Shown one piece after another: positions 18,771 to 27,539 of a stretch of 64,000 nt of DNA (within the stretch, counting starts at the first letter, position 1; each line of letters begins with the position of its first letter). A program made the position numbers and the translations under genes. This stretch comes from Sphaerimonospora thailandensis (lineage in GTDB: Bacteria; Actinomycetota; Actinomycetes; Streptosporangiales; Streptosporangiaceae), in the NCBI RefSeq assembly GCF_016863115.1, contig NZ_BOOG01000037.1:1-64000 (forward strand), read 5' to 3'. Under the pieces are notes generated by a model. That model was given only the letters and a program-made list of their open reading frames with translations. It searched no databases and was not told the origin of the DNA.

Positions 18771-19607
18771 TCAGCGCAGCGGCGCGGTCGGGCCTTCCGG
18801 TTCGGTCATCCGCCCCTCCAGCATCGACTGGACGAGCTCGGCGACCTCCTCGTCCGGCAGGCGGCGGAACCCGTCCTCAGTGATCACGGCGACCACCGGC
18901 CAGATCTTCCTCGTGACGTCGGGCCCGCCGGTCGCCGAGTCGTCGTCGGCCGCGTCGTAGAGCGCGTGCAGGCACGCCAGCACCGCGTCCCGAGGGGTGG
19001 AGTCGGGCCGGTACAGCTTCTTCAGCGAGCCCCGGGCGAAGATCGAGCCCGAGCCGATCGAGTGGTGATCATGCTGTTCGTACGGCCCGCCGCCCACGTC
19101 GTAGCTGAAGATGCGGCCCTTGCCCGCATTCGGGTCGTACGCCGCGAACAGCGGGACGACCGCCAGGCCCTGCATGGCCATGCCCAGATTGCCACGGATC
19201 ATGGTGGCCAGGCGCTGGGCCTTGCCCTCGGTGGACAGCGACCTGCCCTCCGTCTTCTCGTAGTGCTCCAGCTCGACCCGGAAGAGCCGGGCCACCTCCA
19301 GACCCATGCTCGCGGTGCCCGCGATGCCCATACAGGAATAGTCGTCGGTGCGGAAGACCTTCTCGATGTCCCGCTGCGAGATGATGTTTCCGGAGGTCGC
19401 GCGCCTGTCACCTGCCATGACGACTCCGCCCGCGCAGGTCACGGCGACGATCGTGGTCGCGTGCGGGATCTGGTCGCCCACCGGGGCCGCCAGTGCCTGC
19501 TCCCGGGTGGGCAGCAGATTCGGGGCGTACGCCCCGAGGAACTCGGTGAACGACGCCGACCCCGTGTTAGTGAAGAGGTGGTTCATCCAGGCCTGCTGAG
19601 ATGCCAC
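18771..19607 (-). CDS. prcB: 20S proteasome beta subunit PrcB
   Basis: A 278-aa catalytic subunit made as a precursor. The propeptide (about 50 residues) ends at PHA, and self-cleavage exposes Thr51 in [12 protein letters not shown] as the N-terminal nucleophile. The AGDRRATSG motif (catalytic Asp, Arg, Lys-region) and [12 protein letters not shown] follow. With PrcA it forms the 20S core that degrades pupylated proteins unfolded by Mpa. The GTG at 19607 is used; an ATG seven codons later is an alternative. It diverges from the Gfo/Idh gene and precedes prcA. Confidence 0.97.
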
Positions 19608-19760: not shown

Positions 19761-21053
19761 ATGCGGGGGGACGGTAAGGCCGTGGACGCGTTGAGGGTGG
19801 GCCTCGTAGGGCTGGGCGTGGTCGCGCAGGTGGTCTACCTGCCGCTGCTGGCCCGGCGGCGGGACATGTTCCGGGTCGCCGCGGTGTGCGATCTGGACCT
19901 CGGCCACGCCGAGGAGGTCGGCGGCGAGATCGGCGCCCGGGCGTACGGCGACCCGGTGGAGATGCTGGACGGGGACGGGTTCGACGCGGTGCTCGTGCTC
20001 ACCCCCGGATGTCACGGCGGCCTCGTGCGGGCGGCGCTGGAGCGCGGCCACTGGGTGCTGTGCGAAAAGCCCCTGGCCTACAGCCACGCCGAGGTGCGCG
20101 GCCTGACGGAGCACGGGGCCCGGCTGATGGTCGGCTACATGAAGCAGTACGACCCCGCGGTCCAGCGGCTGCTGGAGTGCCTCCATGAGGCCGGGGGCCC
20201 GGAGTGCGTACGCCATCTGGACGTCACCGTGCTGCATCCCTCCGGGGAGTCCCAACGCCTGTTCGCCCGGCCCCGCGCCTCCGGCCATGCCCCCGAGCGG
20301 CTCGCGCCGTACCTGGAGGCCGAGGAGCGCTCGATCACCGCGGCGCTGGGCACCGCGCCCGATCGGGTGCGGCGGCTCTACTCGCAGGTCCTGCTGGGGA
20401 GCATCAGCCACGAACTGTCACTCATCCGGCTGTTCACCGAGCCGCCCCCTGGGCCGTCCACTGGGCCGCCCGCCGGTTCATCCGCCCGTTCGTCCCCTGG
20501 TTCGTCCTCCGGGCCGGACACCGAGGCGGTGCCGACCGTGGATCACGTGGCCGTCTGGCCGCTGGACGCCTTCCCACCGTCGGTCGAGGTGGCCGGGGTC
20601 CTGCCCGGGCCACCGGCGGGATCATCGGCAGGGTCGTGCTCCGGGAGGTTCGGCGTGCGCTGGCACTATCTGCCGAGCTATCCGGCCTACCACGAGACGG
20701 TTACGCTGCACCACGAGCACGGCTCGCTGGAACTGCACTTCCCCTCCCCGTATCTCCTCAACGCGCCCACCCGGCTCACCGTCCGGTCGCGGGTGGGCAC
20801 CACCGAACGGACGATGGTCTTCCGGGATGTCGCCGAGGCGTTCGAGCGGCAACTCGTCGCCTTCCACCGGTTCGTCACCCAGGGCGAACCGCCGCTCACC
20901 GGGCTGGACGGGGCGCTGCGCGACATCGCCACCGCCCAGTTGATCGCCCGCAGATACGCCGAATCCGTCGGGATCCCCCTGGGAGGCGAGTGCGCCGAGA
21001 TCTCTCCAGCCGGGATCTTTCCGGGCGGCGAGCGAACAGCGGAACGTAGGTGA
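19761..21053 (+). CDS. Gfo/Idh/MocA-family oxidoreductase
   Basis: A 430-aa NAD(P)-dependent dehydrogenase-like protein. The Rossmann motif GLVGLGVVAQVVYLP is at the N-terminus, then LVLTPGCHGGLV and the family motif CEKPLAY with its catalytic-site Lys. The substrate is unknown; the family acts on sugars, inositols and related compounds. Residues ~228-260 are an inserted Gly/Ser/Pro low-complexity run, with a second short run near 285-300, which is unusual for this fold. A GTG lies one codon upstream and another seven codons downstream of the ATG used. It diverges from prcB and converges on pup, interrupting the proteasome gene order. Confidence 0.82.
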   Translation: MRGDGKAVDALRVGLVGLGVVAQVVYLPLLARRRDMFRVAAVCDLDLGHAEEVGGEIGARAYGDPVEMLDGDGFDAVLVLTPGCHGGLVRAALERGHWVLCEKPLAYSHAEVRGLTEHGARLMVGYMKQYDPAVQRLLECLHEAGGPECVRHLDVTVLHPSGESQRLFARPRASGHAPERLAPYLEAEERSITAALGTAPDRVRRLYSQVLLGSISHELSLIRLFTEPPPGPSTGPPAGSSARSSPGSSSGPDTEAVPTVDHVAVWPLDAFPPSVEVAGVLPGPPAGSSAGSCSGRFGVRWHYLPSYPAYHETVTLHHEHGSLELHFPSPYLLNAPTRLTVRSRVGTTERTMVFRDVAEAFERQLVAFHRFVTQGEPPLTGLDGALRDIATAQLIARRYAESVGIPLGGECAEISPAGIFPGGERTAERR

Positions 21054-21362: not shown

Positions 21363-21572
21363 CTACTGCCCGCCCTTCTGCACGTAGCTGCGGACGAACT
21401 CCTCCGCGTTCTCCTCGAGGACCTCGTCGATCTCGTCGAGGATCGCGTCGACGTCGTCGGTGAGCTTCTCCTGGCGCTCCTGCACATCCGGGGACGCCTG
21501 CGCCTCGACCTCCTCGACCTCATGATCCTGACGGCCGGTCTGCTTCTGACCGCCGGTCTCCTTGGTCGCCAT
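21363..21572 (-). CDS. pup: prokaryotic ubiquitin-like protein Pup
   Basis: A 69-aa intrinsically disordered modifier. It starts MATKETGGQKQ and has the central helix-forming segment (VQERQEKLTDDVDAILDEIDEVLEENAEEFVRSYVQ) that binds the Mpa coiled coil. It ends in Gly-Gly-Gln, so Dop must deamidate the terminal Gln to Glu before PafA can ligate it. The start at 21572 has a GGGAGAG site directly upstream; upstream in-frame codons do not look like Pup. A kinase-like gene on the opposite strand separates it from dop. Confidence 0.97.
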   Translation of the reverse strand: MATKETGGQKQTGRQDHEVEEVEAQASPDVQERQEKLTDDVDAILDEIDEVLEENAEEFVRSYVQKGGQ

Positions 21573-21787
21573 CTCTCCCACCTCCGGTGCTCGGGGGCCC
21601 CTCTCCCTCCATATCTTCCCCGAACCGGCCGACAATGCGCGCGAAAGGTCCCGCGATCTTTACCACAATCGCCCAGGTAGACCGGATCGTTATCGGGGTC
21701 GGGCCCCTTGGCGCCCCCAACGGTCACGCCTGGGGACCGTTCCCGGGGAGAATGTGATCCACGGGATCAGGGGACGACAGGTGGCTG

Positions 21788-22681
21788 ATGGAGACCGGAG
21801 AACGGAGACTGCTGGCGGAACGCTACCTGCTGCTTTCCCCACTGCGCCGCGACGGCGCGGGGATCATGTGGCACGCGCACGATCTGCGCCTCAAGCGGGA
21901 CGTCGCGATCAAGGAGGTGCAGCCACCGTACCGGGCGGATGAGGTCGACCTCCCGGCGGCTCGGCGGCAGGCTCTGCGCGAGGCGCGCTCGGCCGCCCGG
22001 CTGAGCCATCCGGCGATCATCACCGTGCACGATCTGCTGGAGGACCGGGGCCGACTCTGGATCGTCACCGAACTGCTGCAGGGCCTCACGCTCGCCGATA
22101 CGGTACGGCACCTGGGGCGCCTGCCGATGCACTGGGGCGCCTGGGTGGGTTTCCAACTCCTGGCCGGCGTACGGCACGCGCACGCGATGGGCGTGCTGCA
22201 CGGGGACATCCGGCCGGGAACGGTCCTGCTGACCGAGGACCGCGTGGTCCTCACGGATTTCGGGATCGCGGCCTTCGACCGTGACTCCTCGTCGTCCGTC
22301 ACGGTCCCGATCGCGCGGACCGGGGTCTACCTCGCGCCCGAGCGGCTGCACGGGGCGCCGGCCTCGGCCGCGGCCGACCTGTGGTCGTTCGGCGCCACGC
22401 TGTATTACGGCATCGAGGGCGCGCCCCCCACCCCCGCAGACGAACCCGTCCCGCCGCGGTCGGCCGGGCCGCTCACCGGCCTGCTGACGGCGCTGCTGCG
22501 ACGTGATCCGCGTCGACGGCCGACGGCCGAGCAGACGGCAGCCGTGCTGATCGAGTTTCTCCGGCGGCGCGGCATCCCGGCCGCGCCGCCGGGCCGACGC
22601 GCGCTGAGCGCCGCTCCCCACGGCCCGGCGCCCCACAGCCCAGATCCCCACGGCCCGGCGCCCCACAGCCCAGCTCTCTGA
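21788..22681 (+). CDS. degenerate serine/threonine protein kinase-like protein (candidate pseudokinase)
   Basis: A 297-aa soluble Hanks-type kinase-like protein. Retained features are the VAIK Lys42, a Glu in the C-helix (near 65), the catalytic-loop Asp140, DFG at 158-160 (LTDFG) and an APE motif near 183-185. Degenerate features are the glycine loop (LRRDGAGIMW, two of three glycines lost), HRD changed to HGD, the catalytic-loop Lys changed to Arg142 and the metal-binding Asn changed to Thr145. No membrane helix or PASTA sensor follows. The C-terminus is a His/Pro/Ala repeat from a 30-bp duplication. It lies on the opposite strand between pup and dop. Weak activity or a scaffold role is possible. 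Confidence 0.8.
   Translation: METGERRLLAERYLLLSPLRRDGAGIMWHAHDLRLKRDVAIKEVQPPYRADEVDLPAARRQALREARSAARLSHPAIITVHDLLEDRGRLWIVTELLQGLTLADTVRHLGRLPMHWGAWVGFQLLAGVRHAHAMGVLHGDIRPGTVLLTEDRVVLTDFGIAAFDRDSSSSVTVPIARTGVYLAPERLHGAPASAAADLWSFGATLYYGIEGAPPTPADEPVPPRSAGPLTGLLTALLRRDPRRRPTAEQTAAVLIEFLRRRGIPAAPPGRRALSAAPHGPAPHSPDPHGPAPHSPAL
22616..22675. repeat. 30-bp tandem duplication at the 3' end of the kinase-like gene
   Basis: Two adjacent 30-bp units (22616-22645 and 22646-22675) differ by a single base. They encode the PHGPAPHSPxPHGPAPHSP tail of the kinase-like protein. This looks like a recent slippage duplication and may vary in copy number among relatives. Confidence 0.85.
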
Positions 22682-22732: not shown

Positions 22733-24250
22733 TCAGCTCTCCCCGGTGAGCGCGGCGACGAGGTCGGCGGCGGTGCGGCACCGGTCGAGGAGGCCCCCCA
22801 CGTGCGCCTTGGTCCCGCGCAGCGGCTCCAGGGTCGGCACGCGCTGCAGCGACTCCCGGCCCGGAATGTCGAAGATCACCGAATCCCAGGAGGCGGCCGC
22901 CACCGCGTCGCTGTACTGGCGCAGGCACCGGCCGCGGAAGTAGGCGCGGGTGTCGGTGGGCGGCAGCTCGACGGCACGGTCCACCTCCTCCTCGCTCACC
23001 AGCCGCTGCATCCGGCCCCGCGCCACGAGGCGGTTGTAGAGGCCGCGGTCGGGGCGGATGTCGGAGTACTGCAGGTCGACGAGTTGGAGGCGCGGGTGGG
23101 ACCAGGGCAGACCGTCCCGGGTGCGGTAGCCCTCCAGGATCTCCAGCTTGGCCACCCAGTCGAGCTCCCTGGAAAGTTGCATCGGATCCTCGGCGAGCCG
23201 GGTGAGCACGGACTCCCAGCGGGCCAGCACGTCCTTGGTCATCTCGTCGACGCCCGTGCCGAACCGGTCCTCGACGTACTTGCGTGCCTGCTCGAGATAC
23301 TCCATCTGGAGCTGGACGGCCGTCATCTTCCGCCCGTTGCGCAGGGCGATCTCGTACCGGCAGGTCGGGTCGTGCGACACCGCCCGTAGCGCCGCGACCG
23401 GCGACTCGGGCGTGAGGTCGACGGTGAGGAAGCCCTCCTCGATCATCGCCAGCACCAGCGCCGTGGTCCCCAGCTTCAGATATGTCGAGATCTCCGACAT
23501 GTTGGCGTCGCCGATGATCACATGCAGGCGGCGGTACTTCTCGGGGTCGGCGTGCGGTTCGTCCCGGGTATTGATGATCGGCCGCTTGAGCGTGGTCTCC
23601 AGGCCGACCTCGACCTCGAAGAAGTCGGCCCGCTGGCTGATCTGGAAGCCGTCGCCGCGCGAGTCCTGGCCGATGCCGACCTTCCCCGCGCCGCAGACCA
23701 CCTGGCGGGACACGAAGAACGGCGTCAGGTGGCGGACGATGTCGGCGAACGGCGTGGCCCGGCGCATCAGGTAGTTCTCGTGGCAGCCATAGGAGGCGCC
23801 CTTGGCGTCGGTGTTGTTCTTGTAGAGCTGAATGGGGGCGTTGCCGGGCATCGCCGAGGCGCGGACCGCCGCGTCGTACATGACCCGCTCCCCCGCCTTG
23901 TCCCAGATCACCGCCGCGCGCGGATTGGTGCACTCGGGCGTGGAGTACTCCGGATGGGCGTGATCCACGTACAGCCGGGCGCCGTTGGTGAGGATCACGT
24001 TGGCCAGGCCGAGGTCCTCGTCGGTGAGCTGGCTCTGGTCGGCCACCTCACGGGCCAGGTCGAAGCCCCGGGCATCGCGGAGCGGATTCTCCTCCTCGAA
24101 ATCCCACCGCGCGCGGCGCGCACGCGCGGCCGATGCCGCCAGGTAGGCGTTGACGACCTGTGAGGAGGTCACCATCGCGTTCGCCCCGGGCTGCCCGGGC
24201 ACGGCGATGCCGTACTCGGTCTCGATGCCCATCACCCGCCGTACCGTCAT
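22733..24250 (-). CDS. dop: deamidase/depupylase of Pup, Dop
   Basis: A 505-aa paralogue of PafA. It converts the C-terminal Gln of Pup to Glu and also cleaves Pup from substrates, using bound nucleotide as cofactor. The metal-site Glu10 is in GIETEYGI and the key Asp96 in [15 protein letters not shown]. The Dop-specific loop lies around residues 40-80. The [16 protein letters not shown] and [27 protein letters not shown] blocks are shared with PafA. The ATG at 24250 is preferred over a GTG two codons upstream because of spacing to the G-rich site. Confidence 0.97.
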
Positions 24251-24383
24251 TCGCACCCCGCCCGCTCAAGGCCGTCATCACTTATATCCCCGAGCCTAGG
24301 TCATGTTTCACAAACCATGCCCTGCCGGACGCGGGCCGCGTCAACACTCCCTGGCCCTTTCTCTATGCCCTGTTGCCGGACAC

Positions 24384-25595
24384 TTACGGCACAGATGCCC
24401 GATGACTTCGCCCGGACCCTCCGGCGGGGCGGACACTGCCGCGCAACGCCTCCAGCGCGGCCCTGAGCAGCCGCTGGCCGGGCTTGTCGACGATTCGGTA
24501 AACCAGATAGGCCAGCACCGCCGAGACGCCCATCGTGATGGCGGTGAGCAGCCATGGGTTGAGATCGTCCCGGTAGCTGGGGATGAGGACCGCCGAGACG
24601 TTCTGATGCAGCAGGTAAAGCGGGTAGGTGAGCGCCCCCACGGCGATCAGGGGCCGCCAGCGCAGCCACCGCAGCCAGCCGAGCGCGACGCCGGCCATCA
24701 GTAGGTAGATCAGCGCTATCGCGACGATCACTCCCTCCGGCGGCGCAGGGAAGTGCTTGAGACCGATCGCGTCCACCCGCGACCCCACACGCTCCTGGGC
24801 CGCGTAGAGGGACATCGCGAAGGAGGCGGCCACGAACACCCACGGCGCCCAGGCCCGCGCGCCGAACCGGTAGATCAGGTAGAAGGCCATTCCGCCGATG
24901 AAGTAGGAAGCCTGCCGGGGCAGGAAGACGAAGACCAGCACCTCGTTCTGGGTGATCTCGGCTGCCAGGGCCAGCAGGAGCCAGGCCCCCATGAAGACCA
25001 GGCACCGCCGTACGGTGATCCCGAACAGCGAGAACACCGCGACGAGGACGTAGAACCGCAGTTCCACCCACAGCGACCAGAAGACACCGCCCGCGTGTCC
25101 CACCCCGAACGCGCCCTGCAGCATGGTCAGGTTGAGCAGGTATTCGCCGTCGTCGAGTTTGGGGTCGAAGCCCGCGACGCCGCTGAAGCGGTAGAGAATG
25201 AAGATCACCAAGACGGCGAACCAGTACGCCGGGTACAGCCGGGCCACCCGGGAGATCGCGAACCGGCCGACCGTGCGGCCCCACACGCTCATCAGGATGA
25301 CGAACCCGCTGATGAGGAAGAACAGCTCCACACCGAGGATGCCGAGCGTCGTCAGACGGCTCACCTCGGGAAACACCGTGGTCGGGAACTGGTTCCACAG
25401 GGAGCGGCTGGCCGCCATGAAGTGGAACGACATCACGGCGAACGCCGCGACGAATCTGAGGGCGTCGAGTTCGATGAGGCGGGGGCCCTTGAACACCTGG
25501 GCGCCGCCGCCCCCGGTGGCCGTGTCTCCGGTGTCCCTGTCCGCGGCAGCCCGGCCCCCCGCGGCCTTGTCCCCGGCAACGCCTAGGTAGATCAC
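24384..25595 (-). CDS. acyltransferase family 3 membrane protein (OafA/YrhL type)
   Basis: A 403-aa integral membrane acyltransferase that would O-acylate an exported or surface glycan or lipid. After a Gly/Ala-rich N-terminus, the family start LIELDALRFVAAFAVMSFHF is seen with the catalytic-region His. Next comes GVELFFLISGFVI, then RLYPAYWFAVLVIFI, and about ten hydrophobic helices in total. The GTG at 25595 sits very close to an AAAGGGGA site. The conserved part begins only near residue 36, so the true start could be an internal GTG at VFKGPRLIE. The acceptor is unknown. It is separated from mpa by a strong hairpin. Confidence 0.85.
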   Translation of the reverse strand: MIYLGVAGDKAAGGRAAADRDTGDTATGGGGAQVFKGPRLIELDALRFVAAFAVMSFHFMAASRSLWNQFPTTVFPEVSRLTTLGILGVELFFLISGFVILMSVWGRTVGRFAISRVARLYPAYWFAVLVIFILYRFSGVAGFDPKLDDGEYLLNLTMLQGAFGVGHAGGVFWSLWVELRFYVLVAVFSLFGITVRRCLVFMGAWLLLALAAEITQNEVLVFVFLPRQASYFIGGMAFYLIYRFGARAWAPWVFVAASFAMSLYAAQERVGSRVDAIGLKHFPAPPEGVIVAIALIYLLMAGVALGWLRWLRWRPLIAVGALTYPLYLLHQNVSAVLIPSYRDDLNPWLLTAITMGVSAVLAYLVYRIVDKPGQRLLRAALEALRGSVRPAGGSGRSHRASVP

Positions 25596-25775: not shown

Positions 25776-27539
25776 TTACAGGTACTGGCCCGTGTTGGCG
25801 ACCGTGTCGATCGACCGGCCGGCCTCGGTGCCCTGCTTGCCCTGGACGAGCGTGCGGATGTAGACGATCCGCTCGCCCTTCTTGCCGGAGATGCGGGCCC
25901 AGTCGTCGGGGTTGGTGGTGTTGGGCAGGTCCTCGTTCTCGGAGAACTCATCGACGCACGCGGCCAGCAGGTGCGAGATCCGCAGGCCCTTCTGCCCGGT
26001 GTCGAGGAACTCCTTGATCGCCATCTTCTTACCGCGGTCCACGATGTTCTGGATCATGGCCCCGGAGTTGAAGTCCTTGAAGTACAGGACCTCCTTGTCG
26101 CCGTTGGCGTAGGTCACCTCCAGGAAGCGGTTCTCCTCGCTCTCGGCGTACATCCGCTCGACGACCCGCTGGATCATCTCCAGGATCGTGCTCGCGCGGC
26201 TGCCGTCATGCTCGGCCAAGTCGTCCCCGTGCAGCGGCAGTTCGCTGACCAGGTACTTCGAGAAGATGTCCTTGGCCGCCTCGGCGTCCGGCCGCTCGAT
26301 CTTGATCTTCACGTCCAGGCGGCCGGGCCGCAGGATCGCAGGGTCGATCATGTCCTCGCGGTTGGACGCGCCTATGACGATGACGTTCTCCAGGCCCTCG
26401 ACGCCGTCGATCTCCGACAGCAGCTGAGGGACGATGGTGTTCTCCACGTCGGAGGAGACGCCGGATCCCCGGGTCCGGAAGATCGAGTCCATCTCGTCGA
26501 AGAACACGATCACCGGGGTGCCCTCGGACGCCTTCTCCCGGGCCCGCTGGAAGACCAGGCGGATGTGCCGCTCGGTCTCACCGACGTACTTGTTCAGCAG
26601 TTCGGGGCCCTTGATGTTGAGGAAGAAGCTCTTGCCGGACTGGCCGGTCTTCTCCGCGACCTGCTTGGCCAGGGAGTTGGCCACCGCCTTGGCGATGAGC
26701 GTCTTGCCGCAACCGGGCGGGCCGTACAGCAGCACACCCTTCGGCGGGCGGAGCTGGTGCTCCCGGAACAGGTCGGCGTGCAGGTAGGGCAGCTCGATGG
26801 CGTCCCTGATCTGCTCGATCTGCCGGCTGAGACCGCCGATCTCCTCGTAGGAGATGTCCGGGACCTCCTCCAGCACGAGCTCCTCGACCTCGGCCTTCGG
26901 AATCCGCTCGTACACGTAGTTCGACCGGGGTTCGAGCAGGAGGGAGTCGCCGGCGCGCAGCGGCTGGTCCAGCAGCGAGTGCGCGAGCTTGACCACCCGC
27001 TCCTCGTCGGCGTGCGAGATGACGAGGGCGCGGTCGCCGTCCTCAAGGAGCTCCTTGAGCATGACGATCTCGCCGACATCCTCGTAGCCGAGGGCCTCCA
27101 CGACGTTGAGCGCCTCGTTCAGCATGACCTCCTGGCCACGCCTGAGCGACTCGACGTCCACGGCCGGGCTCACGTTCACCCGGAGCTTGCGGCCGCCGGT
27201 GAACACCTCCACCGTGTCGTCTTCCCTGGCCTCGAGGAACACCCCGAAGCCGGACGGCGGCTGTGCCAGCCGGTCGACCTCCTCCTTGAGGGCGACTATC
27301 TGGTCCCTGGCCTCCTTGAGGGTGGAAACCAGCCGCTCGTTCTGGCTGGTGAGGGCGGCCACCTGGGCCTGCGTCTCATGGAGACGCTCTTCGATGATCC
27401 TGGCCTGCCGGGGAGACTCGGCCAGCTTCCGCCTCAGCGCGGTGATCTCCTCCTGCAGGAAGGAGACCTGTGTTGTGAGATCCGCGACCTCCCGTTCGCG
27501 CTGCGCGGCTCGAGCCTCGGCGTCGTCGCGAGCTGCCAC
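25776..27539 (-). CDS. mpa: proteasome-associated AAA+ ATPase Mpa (ARC)
   Basis: A 587-aa hexameric unfoldase that captures Pup-tagged proteins and feeds them to the 20S proteasome. An N-terminal coiled coil (about residues 5-95) binds Pup. Two OB-like inter-domains follow. The AAA module has Walker A GPPGCGKT, pore-loop NKYVGETE and Walker [10 protein letters not shown], with arginine-finger-region RPGRLDVKI. The protein ends GQYL, with the penultimate Tyr that docks into the PrcA ring. The GTG start is supported by AAGGAGGTGA at the right distance. It forms its own unit bounded by a hairpin. Confidence 0.98.

Follow-up and report, generated by a model that had tools for sequence, protein, structure and literature searches.

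A pup-linked kinase-fold gene family with repeated loss of catalytic residues in Streptosporangiaceae

The proteasome locus and its kinase-like gene

The analyzed stretch of DNA (the window; 64,000 nucleotides from Sphaerimonospora thailandensis) carries four Pup-proteasome genes, all located on the minus strand. These are prcB, which encodes the proteasome beta subunit (18771..19607; TIGR03690, 364 bits), pup, which encodes the bacterial protein-disposal tag Pup (21363..21572; PF05639, 4.6e-30, and TIGR03687), dop, which encodes a protein of 507 amino acid residues (22733..24256; TIGR03688, 777 bits against a cut-off of 492), and mpa/arc, which encodes the proteasome ATPase (25776..27539; TIGR03689, 847 bits). 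The longest frame of pup spans 21363-21635, and comparison with relatives indicated the ATG at 21572 as the likelier start, from which a protein of 69 amino acid residues runs from MATKETGG to GGQ. A kinase-like gene, assigned below to family B, lies between pup and dop on the plus strand (21788..22681, with the ATG at 21788 and the stop codon at 22679-22681), where the initial annotation had correctly placed it, and it encodes a protein of 297 amino acid residues (Pfam Pkinase, 1e-31). According to the coordinates, pup and the kinase gene are separated by a common divergent intergenic region of 215 bp (21573..21787), and the convergent gap between the kinase gene and dop is 51 bp. A promoter scan of the region 21573..21787 found no sigma-70-type consensus. 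Other genes are interspersed in the cluster: a plus-strand ORF ending at 21053 and coding from about 19640 encodes a Gfo/Idh/MocA-type oxidoreductase between prcB and pup, and an acyltransferase-3 family protein is encoded between dop and mpa (24384-25595, minus strand). Gfo/Idh/MocA-type genes recur close to pup in many relatives, and the acyltransferase-3 gene at the dop-mpa position is also recurrent in many relatives of the group.

By sequence, the product of the kinase-like gene has the Hanks-type kinase fold (PF00069, 110.8 bits against a gathering score of 31.7). As shown by the alignment, K42 of VAIK, the catalytic D140 and an intact DFG motif (D157-F-G, residues 157-159; 22256..22264, plus strand) are present, and alpha-C E65, APE E185 and alpha-F D197 are also retained. 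The glycine loop, L-R20-R-D22-G-A-G25 (R20 to G25 at 21845..21862, plus strand), is degenerate, its first two glycines being replaced by R20 and D22 and the third being retained. In the catalytic loop, H138-G139-D140-I-R142-P-G-T145 (residues 138-145; 22199..22222, plus strand; canonical HRDxKPxN), the HRD Arg is changed to Gly, the Lys to Arg and the Asn to Thr. All of these residue assignments agree with those of the initial annotation. The same five changes are present in G034, the other available genome of the genus (RRDGAG and HGDIRPDT), which rules out sequencing errors as their source.

The stretch after helix F is shortened in the window protein (residues 211-226; 22418..22465, plus strand). 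The rows of G034, G064 and G077 share this shortening at the place expected for helix G, whereas most of the remaining parsed rows are longer by about 9-12 residues; the window protein probably has no helix G. An AlphaFold model built from a nine-row alignment placed a loop in the helix-G region, but with a mean pLDDT of 58 this low-confidence model is too poor to give more than a weak hint on the missing helix. The C-terminal tail, with a PHGPAPHSP repeat (22601..22678, plus strand), replaces the PPxAFTx-like tail of the family. A Kyte-Doolittle scan of the window protein detected no hydrophobic stretch of transmembrane strength. Every NCBIfam match of the protein was below its cut-off, and its PADLOC matches, for which no cut-offs are given, resembled general kinase-domain matches.

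A search of the host genome returned 44 kinase matches in all, and the window protein was aligned with 27 of the remaining 43, mostly those with the highest scores. Of the 28 aligned proteins, the window protein was the most altered, with 5 of 15 scored sites changed. Both HRD and the catalytic Lys were retained in 26 of the 27 others, and HGD was found in one; given HRD in 26/27 of those aligned (of 43 others), the idea that this genome is rich in degenerate kinases was rejected. The one exception, at L253 (G000:C40:64300-65600), is a second kinase of the genome with degraded motifs (VAVR and HGDVRPSN). The nearest paralogue of the window protein in the host genome is 49% identical to it and has, beyond its kinase domain, a segment of strong hydrophobicity. 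With the family B profile, in which it is itself included, the window protein scored 462.9 bits, and the next best match in the genome scored 380.9 bits.

Distribution of family B and its position beside pup

The survey covered 120 drawn genomes of the family, a sample of a larger family, and dop was found above cut-off in 116 of them. The DNA around dop was examined for 70 of the 116 dop-bearing genomes, some of these and a few others being covered by longer or additional stretches, and the members of family B were counted by a whole-genome profile search of all 120 genomes. Family B is defined here by a profile score above 410 bits and by a gene that adjoins pup and diverges from it; to construct the profile, 32 of the 35 members from the survey were combined with three named ones, and the profile leans to syntenic members. 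Family B was found in 35 of the 120 genomes, in 18 genus-level groups, with scores of 427-518 bits. The next class under the profile (at most 385 bits) is a larger kinase, found in 47 genomes that include all 35 with family B. A class-wide search detected family B in 10 of 296 genomes, all of the same family, the position of the gene having been checked in all of them except G269. The genera that carry it make up Streptosporangiaceae in the narrow sense.

The family B gene adjoins pup and is transcribed away from it in all 35 genomes, and the members of G058, G105 and G118, which had not contributed to the profile, were also found adjoining pup. The initial annotation had regarded random presence at unrelated loci as a refutation of its reading; no such scatter was observed, and a chance insertion between pup and dop was ruled out by the position at pup in 35/35. 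The gap from pup to the first kinase was 153-822 bp in the 35 genomes, as measured between matched segments and thus approximate by tens of bases. The distance from the kinase to dop, calculated by hand from the coordinates and likewise between matched segments, was 26-180 bp in 14 genomes, 2.1-3.8 kb in four and 5.4-19.7 kb in 14, with exclusion of the three genomes in which dop lies on another contig (G058, G105 and G118). Among the 35 scored rows of the 38-row table described below, this distance exceeded 1 kb in 20, with 5 changes on the tree. On the prcB side, the distance was 0.2-9.9 kb in the 16 of 35 loci where prcB was within the stretch. Since the pup-kinase gap is narrow and the dop and prcB sides are variable, the pup-kinase pair is the stable unit, and the tie is to pup and not to the pup-dop interval. 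The location proposed at the outset was thus borne out for the pup neighbor, which is fixed in 35/35, but not for the interval, dop being 2-20 kb away in 18 of the 35 genomes and on another contig in three. Likewise, the statement that pup and dop are usually adjacent was found to hold outside this group of genera (the gap in Actinomadura loci is mostly 0.1-0.4 kb) but not inside it, where the interval is often occupied.

Twelve of the 47 family genomes with the nearest paralogue had no family B, and no kinase was found in any of the 11 named Nonomuraea loci (pup was seen in 10), from which it follows that the Pup system runs without family B. The Pup sequences of genomes with and without family B, compared by eye, showed no evident difference.

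A second kinase family, family A, occupies the same slot in 9 of the 120 family genomes (L207:6476-7267 (-), L111:2252-3043, L054:2954-3745 and others). It is a canonical kinase of 264 amino acid residues, intact at the scored sites in 11/11 rows. Family A stands between pup and family B, as tandem genes, in seven of the 35 family B genomes and is missing in the other 28; both families use the slot in Streptosporangium and Planobispora. G005 and G100 have family A beside pup and no family B in the genome. The loci of S. carneum and S. saharense also contain family A there, and their pup-dop stretches showed no family B. The family B gene of Streptosporangium subroseum (L133:17404-18300 (-)) sits on a long branch and combines a degraded loop with HRDINPGS. 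Given this gene and the four cases of family A without family B, family B has possibly been replaced by family A. A conserved hydrophobic protein of 134 amino acid residues (for example, L207:7370-7771 (-)) was also observed in the interval that separates pup from the kinases or, in Nonomuraea, from dop, and its gene has the same orientation as the kinase. It was present in 45 loci, some from the same genome, and in 9 of the 11 named Nonomuraea loci, and in many genomes with the longer gap it is the first gene of the interval; it matched no Pfam family above cut-off and was not found in the window.

On the best explanation, the gene of the window is one member of a vertically kept, pup-linked kinase-fold family, confined within the survey to Streptosporangiaceae in the narrow sense.

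Loss of catalytic residues and selection on family B

Sixteen sites were scored in a table of 38 family B rows, consisting of the 35 survey members together with those of Planotetraspora, S. subroseum and Sphaerisporangium TRM90804. The alpha-C Glu, the His, the DFG Phe, the APE Glu and the alpha-F Asp and Trp were invariant (38/38). The beta-3 Lys and the DFG Gly were each retained in 37 rows and the DFG Asp in 32. Within the glycine loop, retention was 10/38 for the first Gly, 14/38 for the second and 31/38 for the third, and within the catalytic loop it was 16/38 for the HRD Arg, 29/38 for the catalytic Asp, 10/38 for the catalytic Lys and 29/38 for the Asn. Only four rows, all of the Sphaerisporangium clade, were fully canonical. 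The substitutions listed for the window protein are therefore widespread in its relatives, where the initial annotation had suggested looking for them: the HRD Arg is lost in 22/38, the catalytic Lys in 28/38 and the Asn in 9/38. As a control, the nearest paralogue was scored in 21 of the same genomes, and all 16 sites were intact in 21/21.

As described in part of PMC12599244, a pseudokinase is marked by loss of the beta-3 Lys, the HRD Asp or the DFG Asp. At least one of these residues was absent from 11 of the 38 rows, and G022 was the sole row without all three (Arg, Gly and Gly in their places). The designation of candidate pseudokinase, given at first to the window protein, thus suits part of family B, but the window protein itself, with K42, D140 and D157, falls outside the strict definition and, with all three defining residues kept, may retain activity.

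Family B formed one clade, with support of 99/98, and of 94/94 without the motif columns. On the tree built without motif columns, three changes of the catalytic Asp, three of the DFG Asp and five of the Asn were counted. The three changes of the catalytic Asp are those of Microtetraspora (HGA), Planotetraspora (HDG) and Sinosporangium/G004 (HES/HQA). The Sphaerisporangium clade was separated from all other family B members with support of 98/85 with the motif columns and 75/65 without them; because of this drop, it is uncertain whether canonical family B branched off first.

It was considered whether phosphorylation of a substrate, possibly a protein of the proteasome or of the Pup pathway, might persist in the window protein and in the majority of family B, the site tolerating the changes. 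The catalytic Asp, DFG Asp and beta-3 Lys are retained in most rows and a few rows are fully canonical, as counted above, and the fully canonical family A occupies the same slot, in some loci without family B. Active examples are known both among non-RD kinases (BUB1, with HGD) and among metal-poor kinases (CASK, with GFG), and with K42, D140 and D157 kept, a low but real activity of the window protein is possible. In addition, the part of the 2025 review PMC12288473 that deals with mycobacterial 20S particles states that these can undergo phosphorylation, the effect of which is unknown. On the other side, most rows have lost loop glycines 1 and 2 as well as the catalytic Lys, and the 11 rows without a residue regarded as necessary showed no sign of gene decay, which indicates that the lasting role of family B needs no phosphotransfer in those genera. 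That the window protein and the majority of family B are active kinases is regarded as rather unlikely.

No inner stop was found in the 35 family B matches. The dN/dS ratios of family B, obtained by pairwise counting for chosen pairs and without confidence limits, had a full range of 0.09-0.39. The ratio was 0.20 for the window pair, 0.15-0.23 for the HGA clade (catalytic Asp gone), 0.15-0.28 for canonical family B and 0.29-0.39 for the HDG/GFG (Planotetraspora) clade; for family A, it was 0.06-0.29. In 16 matched pairs, dN/dS was 0.11-0.35 for family B and 0.01-0.22 for the paralogue, and it was higher for family B in 15 of the 16. Constraint on family B is relaxed but real. That family B in general is a dying pseudogene was ruled out by the absence of stops in 35/35 matches, with dN/dS below 0.4 in all computed pairs.

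Features specific to the family were also conserved. Of the 18 listed near-invariant residues that differ from the paralogue, eight, among them T105, W116 and W119, are located at positions 100-127, in the region of helices D and E. A short C-terminal tail (PPxAFTx-like), with Phe in the last four residues, was present in 32 of 38 rows and absent in the window clade (five rows) and G064.

These data bear on a further explanation, namely that family B, under relaxed selection, stands beside pup by chance and follows its own business or slow loss, its place being kept because insertions harm the pup promoter. Relaxed constraint would give the dN/dS of up to 0.39 in the Planotetraspora clade and the excess over the paralogue in 15/16 pairs; the long branch of the S. 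subroseum gene, the loci of S. carneum and S. saharense, and the absence from 12/47 genomes with the nearest paralogue point the same way, and protection of the pup promoter alone could account for the fixed pup-kinase spacing. However, dN/dS remains far below 1 in every computed pair, even after loss of the catalytic Asp, and the intact frames in 35/35, the tail with Phe near its end in 32/38, the near-invariant T105, W116 and W119, and the sharing of one slot by two kinase families argue against it. Mere proximity by descent is judged unlikely.

Comparison with known systems and putative role in pupylation

Family B resembles the PknB-like Hanks-type Ser/Thr kinases (PF00069) in having the same fold by sequence, and the nearest solved structure to the window protein is that of M. 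tuberculosis PknB (6.4e-28). It differs from them in that no row has a stretch of transmembrane strength and 34 of 38 rows depart from the canonical residues. Against the PASTA kinase model PknB/Stk1 (NF033483), the window protein scored 147.6 bits with a cut-off of 450, matching the kinase part only and no PASTA part.

Bacterial Ser/Thr pseudokinase families, namely ActPs1, ActPs2, ActPs3 (MviN), GLW, CP1, DYD and DLHK, have been described in PMC12599244. In the parts of that paper used for comparison, these families are, like family B, kinase folds with degraded motifs, and several are actinobacterial. About 60% of ActPs1 members are reported there to be without helix G, as is probable for the window protein. 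Whereas ActPs1-3, GLW and CP1 diverge in all three motifs according to the same parts, family B keeps the beta-3 Lys in 37/38 rows, and a single row (G022) lacks all three residues; many members of ActPs1-3 also carry a further domain or a transmembrane region, unlike family B. Compared by description, the window protein does not fit ActPs1, in which all three catalytic residues are substituted, since it has all three. It has none of the features given for ActPs2 (beta-3 Lys to Arg, HRD Asp to Asn, a DFG deletion and a transmembrane region), and its intact VAIK and DFG do not fit ActPs3/MviN, with wholly degraded motifs and an activation-loop deletion. DYD and DLHK are described as divergent in the ATP- and metal-binding motifs, with the ATP-binding Lys degraded, whereas K42 is kept in the window protein. 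As to GLW and CP1, for which motifs are named in that paper, the window protein shows HGD and not GLW. The main text of PMC12599244 mentions neither Pup nor the proteasome.

The retention of the fold and of the nucleotide-pocket residues, together with the repeated loss of transfer residues, fits a protein that acts by binding. Family B would have begun as an active Hanks-type kinase. From the beta-3 Lys (37/38), the alpha-C Glu (38/38) and the DFG Asp (32/38), most members are predicted still to bind nucleotide; phosphotransfer would be dispensable, and ATP would serve as a structural or sensing ligand of a protein that acts by binding a partner. The window protein, with three defining residues kept and five supporting ones lost, may have weak kinase activity or none and stand partway along this course; it further lacks the family C-terminal tail and probably helix G. 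That family B is a pup-linked kinase lineage becoming a pseudokinase under purifying selection and working by partner binding is held with confidence evenly balanced between acceptance and doubt.

Because the place of family B is fixed, divergent from pup, the Pup pathway is the first suspect for its partner. More weakly, the divergent arrangement suggests that family B may be made together with Pup and may act on the Pup-proteasome system; from its position, it is a candidate regulator of pupylation and could, for instance, serve Dop, PafA or Mpa as an adaptor, akin to CoaX on Dop. CoaX is a homologue of pantothenate kinase and is unrelated to Hanks-type kinases. In Mycobacterium tuberculosis, it does not work as a dimeric kinase but binds Dop and tunes depupylation (Kahne et al., 2024, as summarized in part of PMC12288473), so that the likeness to the proposed role of family B lies in a kinase homologue acting on the Pup system by binding. 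In the same part of this review, no direct regulator of PafA is recorded as found, and CoaX is the Dop regulator described. Accessory roles have been inferred for genes kept by pup and the proteasome: FKBP-type isomerases, a DeoR regulator and PAC2 are listed as neighbors by Iyer et al. (2008; PMC2588565), and family B resembles them in its constant position; a Hanks-type kinase is not named in the passages of that paper on kinases and gene neighborhood. In the literature covered, which was mainly open-access and consisted of titles, abstract beginnings and parts of PMC12599244, PMC12288473 and PMC2588565, nothing was found on a kinase or pseudokinase adjacent to pup. A fuller version of the preferred reading is suggested only tentatively. 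In it, family B members stand at successive stages from kinase to pseudokinase at a fixed place by pup, the catalytic and DFG Asp each having been lost about three times independently, because the lasting job is non-catalytic, that of an ATP-sensing adaptor controlling pupylation or depupylation.

Pseudokinase-kinase pairs are a common design, and family B might instead pair with its nearest active paralogue or with family A, regulating that kinase and not the Pup system. The larger paralogue is present in 35/35 family B genomes, that of the host genome has its strongly hydrophobic segment beyond the kinase domain, and families A and B are in tandem in 7/35. However, family A is missing in 28/35, and the linkage of family B is to pup and not to the paralogue; such a partnership is considered highly improbable.

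On the preferred reading, by which family B acts by binding and is linked to the Pup pathway, a family kept by pup in 18 genus-level groups of the survey provides a concrete candidate regulator for the choice of when and what the Pup-proteasome system tags or frees. Its orthologues at one place range from intact kinase to clear pseudokinase, which allows the timing and cause of the dispensability of catalysis to be tested, and matched controls for this series are located in the same genomes.
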